64,000 nucleotides of DNA from positions 1 through 64,000 of the forward strand of contig NZ_JASJOU010000001.1 in assembly GCF_030068605.1 (NCBI RefSeq), written 5' to 3'. This DNA comes from Xanthocytophaga agilis (GTDB lineage Bacteria; Bacteroidota; Bacteroidia; Cytophagales; 172606-1). Below are positions 13,075 through 49,195 of the stretch, piece by piece (positions within the stretch are counted from its first letter, which is position 1; the number at the start of each line of letters is the position of its first letter). A model generated the notes under the pieces. It was not told the DNA's origin and did not search any database. It saw only the letters and a list, made by a program, of their open reading frames with translations. Both the position numbers and the translations under genes were made by a program.

Positions 13075-13650
13075 ATGCTTATCTACCTGAAAAATCAGCA
13101 AAAGAACTTTCCTGTATTATTGGAGACATTCAAAAGGGTCTCAGTAATGCCTTATGATAGGACTAGACTGGTAGAAAAAGTCTCGGAAATTGTCCTTACC
13201 GTAGATAGGAATATAGAGGAACTGAATCTACAGACTTTGTTTTCCTATAAAGTATTTCCTGAGAATATTCTGATAGCTTTGGGACAATGGGAGATAGAAC
13301 ATAGAGATATGCAGGTTGGAGACACCATTGTACAACAAGTATTTATACCACCTATACAAATATTTTCGCAGAAAGCTGTATTTGGTGTAAGGATAAGTGA
13401 GATAATTGATGAACCACAGCAGAAAGGCTTTAGTTATGAAACATTGGAGGGACATATAGAGAAAGGAATTTCGACATTTACTATTGAGCAAACCAATAAA
13501 GGTCTAGTCTTTAAGATACATACTTTCTCTGTCCCTGGAAACTGGTTTACCAGGTTAGTGGGTCCGGTTTTCGCAATTCCTTATCAGACGTACTGTACAC
13601 AAGCTGCTTTAAAGAAAATCAAACATGATGTTAGTAATCGATTTATTTAA
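13075..13650 (+). CDS. DUF1990 family protein
   Basis: A 191-residue protein matching the DUF1990 (PF09348) pattern: GFSYETLEGHIEKGISTFTIE, a central beta strand (GLVFKIHTFSVPGNWFTRL) and a C-terminal PYQTYCTQAALKKI helix. DUF1990 proteins belong to the START/SRPBCC-like superfamily and may bind a hydrophobic ligand; no activity is known for this one. The family usually begins near the VLLETFK region, so the first 20 residues could be overpredicted. It ends 15 bases before the arm of the 76-bp palindrome, which probably terminates it. Confidence 0.7.
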   Translation: MLIYLKNQQKNFPVLLETFKRVSVMPYDRTRLVEKVSEIVLTVDRNIEELNLQTLFSYKVFPENILIALGQWEIEHRDMQVGDTIVQQVFIPPIQIFSQKAVFGVRISEIIDEPQQKGFSYETLEGHIEKGISTFTIEQTNKGLVFKIHTFSVPGNWFTRLVGPVFAIPYQTYCTQAALKKIKHDVSNRFI

Positions 13651-13664
13651 AAAAGTTTTTTCCT

Positions 13665-13740
13665 CTGGATTCAGTAGCTTGTTAACACAAAAGCCTCTTT
13701 ATATAAAGAGGCTTTTGTGTTAACAAGCTACTGAATCCAG
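13665..13740. repeat. Perfect 76-bp palindrome with terminator core
   Basis: The two 38-base halves are exact reverse complements with no loop, centred between 13702 and 13703. The centre, AAAAGCCTCTTTA facing TAAAGAGGCTTTT, resembles the terminator at 61218-61243. The outer parts extend the symmetry into the last codons of the minus-strand gene. It lies between convergent genes and probably works as a bidirectional terminator, but the length and perfection are exceptional. Confidence 0.85.
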
Positions 13741-13929
13741 GCGATGTTTAAGTTGTTGTTTTCTATAAAATTGAAGACATCGAATGATTTCCAATTGCCA
13801 TCTGAATTCAAATTGCAGATCCGTATTATTTTCAAGGGCTTCTTCAAATTGAGTTCGCTGTGAGATATTCAGGCGATTGAAAATATATTCTTCTATCAGA
13901 TCTTCGTAGAACATTCCTTCTGGAGGCAT
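13720..13929 (-). CDS. Small anti-sigma-factor-like helical protein
   Basis: A protein of about 69 residues. I choose the ATG at 13927-13929; the frame is open to 13965 and an ATG at 13912-13914 is also possible. The sequence EEYIFNRLNISQRTQFEEALENN followed by a helix to QFYRKQQ matches the N-terminal helical pattern (an LxxL/S-R-x-x-F-E-x-x-L motif) of Bacteroidota anti-sigma factors and related adaptors. The zinc-binding HxxxCxxC of classical anti-sigma factors is absent, and there is no sigma factor or membrane segment nearby. It lies 111 bases downstream of the DUF255 gene on the same strand. Its C-terminal codons fall in the 76-bp palindrome. Confidence 0.5.
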   Translation of the reverse strand: MPPEGMFYEDLIEEYIFNRLNISQRTQFEEALENNTDLQFEFRWQLEIIRCLQFYRKQQLKHRLDSVAC

Positions 13930-14040
13930 GGTTAGAAAAATTATCAGTGTAGTAGTGGTTTTCAAGAATTAATACTCCATTTCCCCAAATAGTAAACACA
14001 AATGGTATGTAACAATTTTTTATATAACCAGGAATAATTG

Positions 14041-23039: not shown

Positions 23040-23414
23040 ATGCAAAAATTTCTTTTACTAAGTGGAGCCATACTGGGAGGTTTAGGAGTGGGACTGGGCG
23101 CTTTCGGTGCTCATGCTCTAAAACCTATGCTGGAAGCATCACAGCGATTAGATACCTATGAAACAGCTGTTAAATACCAGTTTTACCATGCATTCGCTTT
23201 ATTAATTACTGGATTGCTAGCCTATCGTATAGAGAATCGCTTATTAACCTACGCTGGATATTCTTTTTTAGGAGGAACACTGATTTTTTCGGGATCACTC
23301 TATATTCTGTGTTTATCAGGAATCCGTTGGTTAGGGGCAATTACACCAATTGGAGGCGTTTTAATGATTATAGGTTGGGTATTGGTTGCCTGGGTTGTTG
23401 CAACCGGAGAATAG
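23040..23414 (+). CDS. DUF423 small membrane protein
   Basis: A 124-residue integral membrane protein of the DUF423 (YgdD) family. The sequence includes the conserved LGAFGAHALK near the N-terminus, an ETAVKYQFYHAFALL segment and GGTLIFSGSLYIL, with four hydrophobic helices. No function is established for the family. It is monocistronic and convergent with the GH18 gene, with which it shares a terminator. Confidence 0.88.
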   Translation: MQKFLLLSGAILGGLGVGLGAFGAHALKPMLEASQRLDTYETAVKYQFYHAFALLITGLLAYRIENRLLTYAGYSFLGGTLIFSGSLYILCLSGIRWLGAITPIGGVLMIIGWVLVAWVVATGE

Positions 23415-23420
23415 ATAATA

Positions 23421-23466
23421 AATAAGAGAAGGCTTCTGCGTACTCTGACAAAAGCCTTTTCTTATT
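23421..23466. terminator. Bidirectional terminator between DUF423 and GH18 genes
   Basis: A 15-bp stem (AATAAGAGAAGGCTT with AAGCCTTTTCTTATT, one G-T pair) that overlaps the end of the GH18 reading frame. Confidence 0.65.
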
Positions 23467-24596
23467 TATTTTGTTTTAGTTAAACTATATTGTTTTACTG
23501 TTTTATCTATTGCGTCTAATAAGCCACCTGTGGGAACATCGTTATTTAATTCCCAGAACATGATACCATTTAATTTCTTATCAAGAGCATATTTGGTTTT
23601 AATTTGAATAGATCGAGGATCATCATAGGTAAAGAAAAGCTTTTGTGTAGCATCATACATATAGGGAGACTGAGCTGTGGAATCCCAAAACGAATGAAAG
23701 TTTTTATTCTTTGCCAGAAATTCAGGCAGTCCTTTGTAATCAACACCATGCTTGAATTTAGTACTCTGATTCAGGCCATTGTTTTCAGGAGCTACATTCT
23801 CAAAAATTCTTCCATAGAAGGCGGCACCAATTACAAGCTTATTTTTGGGTACCCCCAATGCTTCCAGATATTTAACGGCATTATCTGTTGATTCTTTTTG
23901 AACACTTGTAGAATAAAGAGGAGTATGGTGCCCTGTAGTGGTACTGTAACCATTTGTCAGATCGTATGTCATAAGGTTTACTCTATCTACAAGAGGCATT
24001 ACTTTCTTCCAGTCAATAGACTGTTCGAGATAAGTAGTAAATCCACCGGCTGCAAAGCTGATCTCATATTTGTTGCCCATAGTTGTGCGGAGGCGTTGTA
24101 CAAGATCTGTGAAATTGTCTTTATCTGCGGGAAGATACTGATGCCCGGGAACGCCTTCTATTGCAGGATATTCCCAATCCAGATCAATACCATCTGTTTT
24201 GAAATAAATCATTACCGCTTTAACAGACTCCGCAAATTCTTGTCTGGCCGCTGGTGTAGAAAATACTTGTGAACATGTCTCACAGCCTCCCCAACCTCCT
24301 AAAGAAAGCTGAATCTTCAGATTGGGATTACGTTTCTTAAGTGCTACCAGATGTTGAATAGTTAACGTATCTTCTTTTTTATCTACAGTAAACTTATTTC
24401 CTTTCAGATGTAAAAAGCTGAAAATGATGTGTGTTAATTTTTCAATAGGATACTGATCAATGTCTTTGGTACTACCTGCATAGTAGGCAATTACAGTAAA
24501 GTTGTTTTTAGGTGGATGACTTTTAATTGTTGCAGATGTAAATAATAAACCTGCTAGTACAAAGATTGTACTGAAGCGGATAAAAGAATAATGCAT
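23466..24596 (-). CDS. GH18 chitinase-like glycoside hydrolase, exported
   Basis: A protein of about 376 residues. The TIM-barrel catalytic motif DGIDLDWEYP is intact (catalytic Glu142 in this numbering), with the SLGGWGGCETC strand before it and later NLMTYDLTNGY and MFWELNNDV, as in chitinases and related endo-beta-N-acetylglucosaminidases. An N-terminal signal peptide makes it periplasmic or secreted. No chitin-binding domain is visible. With the GH20 hexosaminidase a few kilobases away, the pair could degrade chitin oligomers, although peptidoglycan or glycoprotein substrates are possible. The start is taken at the ATG at 24594-24596, which gives a proper signal; the frame extends to 24632. 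A TTG-N17-TAACTTTG promoter lies upstream. Confidence 0.85.
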   Translation of the reverse strand: MHYSFIRFSTIFVLAGLLFTSATIKSHPPKNNFTVIAYYAGSTKDIDQYPIEKLTHIIFSFLHLKGNKFTVDKKEDTLTIQHLVALKKRNPNLKIQLSLGGWGGCETCSQVFSTPAARQEFAESVKAVMIYFKTDGIDLDWEYPAIEGVPGHQYLPADKDNFTDLVQRLRTTMGNKYEISFAAGGFTTYLEQSIDWKKVMPLVDRVNLMTYDLTNGYSTTTGHHTPLYSTSVQKESTDNAVKYLEALGVPKNKLVIGAAFYGRIFENVAPENNGLNQSTKFKHGVDYKGLPEFLAKNKNFHSFWDSTAQSPYMYDATQKLFFTYDDPRSIQIKTKYALDKKLNGIMFWELNNDVPTGGLLDAIDKTVKQYSLTKTK

Positions 24597-27536: not shown

Positions 27537-27573
27537 AAAAAAGGCCTCATTTTTATAAAAATGAGGCCTTTTA
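27537..27573. terminator. Bidirectional terminator between Nudix and GH20 genes
   Basis: AAGGCCTCATTTTT faces AAAAATGAGGCCTT with flanking A- and T-runs on each side. Confidence 0.75.
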
Positions 27574-49134: not shown

Positions 49135-49195
49135 TTAGCCATAGAACTAAATCGCGTCTATTTTACTTATAGATGTAATTTAGTTCTATGGCTAA
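49135..49195 (+). other. 18-bp inverted-repeat stem-loop after lspA
   Basis: Arms TTAGCCATAGAACTAAAT and ATTTAGTTCTATGGCTAA are exact reverse complements around a 25-base loop, followed by AATTTTA. It separates lspA from the cyclase gene and may be a terminator or a stabilising hairpin. Confidence 0.55.

Follow-up and report, generated by a model that had tools for sequence, protein, structure and literature searches.

The origin of a perfect palindrome between two convergent genes

How does a bacterial chromosome come to carry, between the 3' ends of two genes, a long inverted repeat without a mismatch and without a loop? The question is raised by positions 13665-13740 of the window, the stretch of 64,000 nucleotides of Xanthocytophaga agilis analysed here. 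As the first-pass annotation had claimed, this segment is a perfect, loop-free palindrome of 76 bp: its arms (13665-13702 and 13703-13740) have 38 nt each, are 100% complementary and are separated by 0 nt. It is by far the longest inverted repeat of the window and is present in a single copy (n = 1) in the 9.77-Mb genome. The predicted RNA fold of the region has an energy of -64.9 kcal/mol (z -14.8), while that of its counterpart in Xanthocytophaga flavus is -30.4. A structure of this kind is far beyond chance.

Each arm has two parts (Table 1). The inner 14 nt form a terminator-like core (AAAAGCCTCTTTAT/ATAAAGAGGCTTTT), and the outer 24 nt carry the codons CTG GAT TCA GTA GCT TGT TAA, which read LDSVAC*. 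In the right arm they are the true end of the minus-strand ORF at 13720-13965, six amino acid codons and a stop, and the left arm repeats LDSVAC* on the plus strand. The mirror image described in the first-pass annotation is therefore real, but it had been placed at the end of the plus-strand gene, and this part of the description does not hold: the copy begins 14 nt past the stop of the DUF1990 ORF (13075-13650), downstream of the gene.

Table 1. Features at the palindrome and in its flanks (positions in the window)
Feature	Position	Strand	Remarks
DUF1990 gene, 191 aa	13075-13650	+	Pfam PF09348, E 4.5e-18
Left breakpoint zone	13617-13664	.	Match to X. flavus C3 extends to 13616; DUF1990 stop codon 13648-13650; palindrome starts at 13665
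Outer left arm, 24 nt	13665-13688	+	Perfect complement of 13717-13740; derived reverse-complement copy; LDSVAC* outside any gene
Terminator-like core AAAAGCCTCTTTATATAAAGAGGCTTTT	13689-13716	.	Common to X. flavus (16-bp stem, loop ATAC there)
Outer right arm, 24 nt	13717-13740	-	Ancestral minus-strand gene end (LDSVAC, stop) and 3 nt beyond; colinear with X. flavus C22
Short ORF (start ATG 13926: 68 aa; start TTG 13965: 81 aa)	13720-13965	-	
DUF255 (Thioredox_DsbH) gene, 687 aa	14041-16104	-	Pfam PF03190, E 3.6e-71; anchor of the conserved right flank

The DUF1990 gene converges with the short ORF on its right. It was found in the window's genome and in X. flavus, where the orthologue lies elsewhere (contig C3:318350-318910, 83% amino acid identity), and was found in none of the five other relatives searched. 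The DUF255 protein is 96% identical at the amino acid level in X. flavus and 66% identical in G004, a more distant relative of the same family. The short ORF is similar to a segment of ~300-aa proteins that occur throughout the order, one of them a 310-aa paralogue in the window's genome (C24:88699). Note that it looks like a truncated copy, and that the truncation appears older than the split from X. flavus.

The right arm is inherited and the outer left arm is its copy

The sister genome used for comparison was that of X. flavus YF14B1, the nearest genome. On the right side, the short ORF and the DUF255 gene are ~94-95% identical to X. flavus at the DNA level, and this identity ends within the left arm, at 13685. 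At the end of the same minus-strand gene X. flavus carries a bidirectional terminator, ACTCAAAAGCCTCTTTATACAAAGAGGCTTTTGAGT, with a 16-bp stem and a 4-nt loop, so that an older and shorter inverted repeat exists at the site, as template switching would require. This short terminator faces a 243-aa outer-membrane-type gene (OMP, a label given from its sequence) and not DUF1990.

In the nucleotide-level comparison, which sets the window against X. flavus alone and has no outgroup, the right arm is identical at 34 of its 38 positions; in the left arm, 6 of the outer 20 nt match, which is chance level. Moreover, the four differences of the right arm from X. flavus are all mirrored in the left arm, and the loop-free centre is one substitution away from the X. 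flavus loop. Since one arm is conserved, the other is not, and the differences are mirrored, the gene end was inherited in the right arm and copied from there into the outer left arm. The first-pass annotation had proposed to compare close relatives in order to see which arm is ancestral, and the answer is the right one; the outer left arm is new. In support of its other suggestion, that template switching had extended a terminator hairpin, one arm is conserved and the other is a newly made, exact reverse complement, with the arm of the minus-strand gene as the template.

The palindrome lies at a derived gene-order junction

Left of the palindrome, nucleotide similarity to X. flavus (C3) ends at 13616, the end of the DUF1990 gene, and the breakpoint lies at the left arm or within 50 nt of it. 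The short ORF stands beside DUF1990 here and beside OMP in X. flavus, and therefore the gene order breaks inside the left arm. With three further partners labelled X, Y and Z, the adjacencies form a closed set: X-DUF1990, OMP-81aa and Z-Y in X. flavus; DUF1990-81aa, OMP-Y and Z-X in the window's genome (81aa being the short ORF). A simple reciprocal inversion was rejected, because OMP and DUF1990 do not directly swap their partners and a third breakpoint (Z-Y there, Z-X here) is needed. No further breakpoints were present in the two long colinear blocks compared, of which about 193 and 141 kb were aligned.

Which of the two orders is the older one? In G004 the OMP homologue (70% identical over the last 69 residues) converges on DUF255, with other ORFs between them. 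The X. flavus order is therefore ancestral, and that of the window is derived. As expected of a fold-back junction, an inverted duplication sits at the breakpoint of a rearrangement: colinearity ends at 13616 on the left and at 13685 on the right, and G004 supports the derived state of the order. Thus, the extension by copying that the first-pass annotation had proposed stands, but the derived junction had been missed, as had the many smaller hairpins of the same class described below.

The annotation had also considered an assembly artefact, in which the assembler, or chimeric reads that fold back on themselves, would have produced the symmetric arm or the join. The X. flavus genome is a short-read NODE assembly and that of the window a 66-contig draft, which leaves some room for this reading. 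However, the palindrome is single-copy, so that no second locus exists to cause a false overlap, and the DUF1990-81aa join is exactly the adjacency required to close the three-way exchange with X. flavus. Moreover, dozens of smaller perfect hairpins are found in both species, several of them identical between the two. This explanation is weakened by these results and we consider it very unlikely.

The perfect symmetry of the palindrome and its place at a rearrangement junction might also suggest the end of a mobile element, a recognition site or part of a site-specific inversion system. Such elements would be expected in more than one copy or on mobile replicons; the palindrome is single-copy in 9.77 Mb, it had no match in plasmid or phage collections, one of its arms is host coding sequence, and no Rfam match reached its gathering score. 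A mobile-element end or a recombinase site was consequently rejected, and the probability that we leave to this group of explanations is close to nil. A known structured RNA was rejected as well, since all the Rfam matches were below the gathering scores and most were to microRNA models, which fit any perfect hairpin.

A model for the growth of the left arm

We favour, with a probability of about 0.72, the following explanation: a bidirectional terminator-like hairpin lies between the convergent genes, and its left arm grew when fold-back or template switching copied the right arm at a rearrangement junction. In the ancestor, the right-hand gene would have ended in a terminator with a 16-bp stem, opposite the outer-membrane-type gene. 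In this lineage, the chromosome would have been rejoined immediately left of the hairpin: a 3' end at a broken or stalled site would have folded back on the terminator, or switched strand there, the polymerase would then have copied about 20-24 nt of the coding end of the neighbouring gene, and the copied end would have been joined beside DUF1990. The perfect symmetry, the shared core, the new outer left arm, the derived gene order and the proximity of the breakpoint to the left arm are shown, and we infer the fold-back or template-switch step and its coupling to the rearrangement.

Processes of both kinds have been described. In E. coli lacking SbcCD and RecA, resected ends fold back at interrupted palindromes of 246 bp and 85 bp and become hairpin-capped (PMC3315005). 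Template switching, for its part, makes perfect RNA stems (PMC8794818). Against a simple intrastrand fold-back, a small loop would be expected, and the present centre is loop-free. Ku was not found in the window's genome, in X. flavus or in G002; therefore, the join is not one of classical end joining, and that route was ruled out.

The rearrangement and the arm extension could also be separate events. DUF1990 would first have been set by an ordinary terminator, and a later replication template switch would have extended the left arm in place. This is a variant of the favoured explanation, with the same copying step in another order. Extension in place without rearrangement is seen at another locus, C1:97737 (see below), and loop-free centres are common in the window's genome, the scanned contig containing several hairpins with a loop of 0. 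However, the outer left arm begins less than 50 nt from the breakpoint, and one event accounts for this coincidence more simply. We regard the two-step history as possible, and as the less probable of the two orders.

Long perfect hairpins are a genus-wide class

A scan of 1.26 Mb of the same contig, out of the 9.77-Mb genome, for perfect hairpins (arms of at least 14 bp, loops of up to 10) found 87 (69 per Mb), the longest arm being that of the window (38), followed by 29, 27, 26 and 26, while Markov-1 simulations of the same length (n = 3) gave at most one hairpin each, with a longest arm of 14. The density was 77 per Mb in X. flavus (0.74 Mb scanned) and 47.5 per Mb in a relative of the same family (0.4 Mb scanned). 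Long terminator-like hairpins are thus a class found across the genus, and the palindrome is its extreme member. Note that the window has other long terminator-like hairpins, at 23410-23477, 27539-27572 and 49135-49195, which fit this class.

Two of the other hairpins deserve mention. At C1:97737-97796, the left arm includes the 3' end of a plus-strand gene (...DKSKKDR*), the arm length is 29 here against 13 in X. flavus, and the flanks are colinear. Over the distal 16 nt, the left arm matches X. flavus at 16/16 positions and the right arm at 6/16, with a 7-nt gap. The locus is an in-place twin of the palindrome, in which a coding end was copied across the terminator without rearrangement. The second, C1:979102-979152, is a hairpin between convergent genes with arms of 23 bp, its X. 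flavus counterpart (C60, about 455777-455840) having arms of 30 bp. At six pairs both arms have changed, in five cases by transversion, and the long perfect arms are kept in both species; the locus is a strong case of concerted arm evolution.

When 28 hairpins were compared with X. flavus, 21 pairs had changed on both sides and were still paired (12 by transversion), and 38 were one-sided changes or broken pairs. Clean in-place rewriting of one arm was seen in one case among the 28 spanned hairpins; most of the other length differences were due to scattered changes in both arms. Arm copying is thus a process that occurs, and frequent one-arm rewriting is rejected. We claim no rate for the process, because the spanned hairpins gave one clean case besides the window.

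These data bear on the possibility that selection built the long stem stepwise, by compensatory point mutations, a long terminator or cruciform being useful, for example, to stop convergent transcription. In its favour, convergent genes flank 21 of the 40 hairpins whose arms reach 19 bp or more, compared with 182 convergent pairs among 987 adjacent gene pairs, and some hairpins are identical in both species. However, the outer arm of the palindrome is an exact copy of a coding end and is sited at a derived junction, and a 16-bp stem is already strong. Moreover, the 12 transversions among the 21 double-changed pairs cannot have passed through a G-U intermediate. We therefore judge a selective origin unlikely.

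A broader proposal would be that the intrinsic terminators between convergent genes in Xanthocytophaga are a population of growing palindromes, repeatedly lengthened by fold-back copying into the ends of adjacent genes, some of which also serve as break or fold-back points for rearrangements. If so, terminators would shape gene order. We put this forward as a speculation, more doubtful than it is probable. As a separate observation, the region at C1 about 115156-115430 is a dispersed repeat, to which the X. flavus contigs hold more than 50 partial matches at 70-90% identity.

Relation to known systems

The mutational mechanism is a known one, of which the palindrome is a real, striking and informative example. 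As occurs in the quasipalindrome template-switch mutations of E. coli and yeast (PMC7202029, PMC8794818), one arm has been turned into an exact reverse complement of its partner, and the stem has become longer and perfect. Unlike in those mutations, the extension is of at least 20 nt in one block, it lies over a transcription terminator, it coincides with a rearrangement junction, and it is deduced from comparison instead of being observed as a mutation. The fold-back inversions and hairpin-capped ends of E. coli sbcDC recA (PMC3315005) and of yeast (PMC7467729) share with it a short inverted repeat near a break that primes copying, and an inverted duplication at the junction; there, kilobases are duplicated, whereas here the duplication is of about 24 nt and the copied end was joined to unrelated sequence. 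Finally, as in bidirectional intrinsic terminators between convergent genes, an A-tract, a GC-containing stem and a T-tract are arranged symmetrically between two gene 3' ends, but here the stem measures 36-38 bp and includes the last codons of one gene.

The basic understanding of terminators and palindromes is unchanged by this locus. Its value is that one-step growth of a terminator stem has been caught naturally, and that one can still identify the template arm, the ancestral short form and the derived gene order. Arm copying at terminators is usually studied via reporter mutations. With 69 long perfect hairpins per Mb, compared with about 0-1 in simulated sequence, and their abundance at convergent gene ends, the genus is a handy one in which to measure it.

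Termination and stability

By inspection, the core consists of GCCTCTTTATATAAAGAGGC followed by TTTTGTGTT between the two convergent stops. The automatic terminator scan made no call here, probably because the stem swallows the T-tract. Judged from this anatomy, both convergent transcripts probably still end at the core. The extra 24 nt show no sign of a role of their own; they need no function beyond termination and probably have no new one.

The first-pass annotation had stressed that long perfect palindromes are unstable in vivo, a concern that turns out to be overstated. An 85-bp interrupted palindrome is tolerated in SbcCD+ E. coli (PMC3315005), and for this reason a stable palindrome of 76 bp is unsurprising; an SbcD homologue is present in the window's genome.
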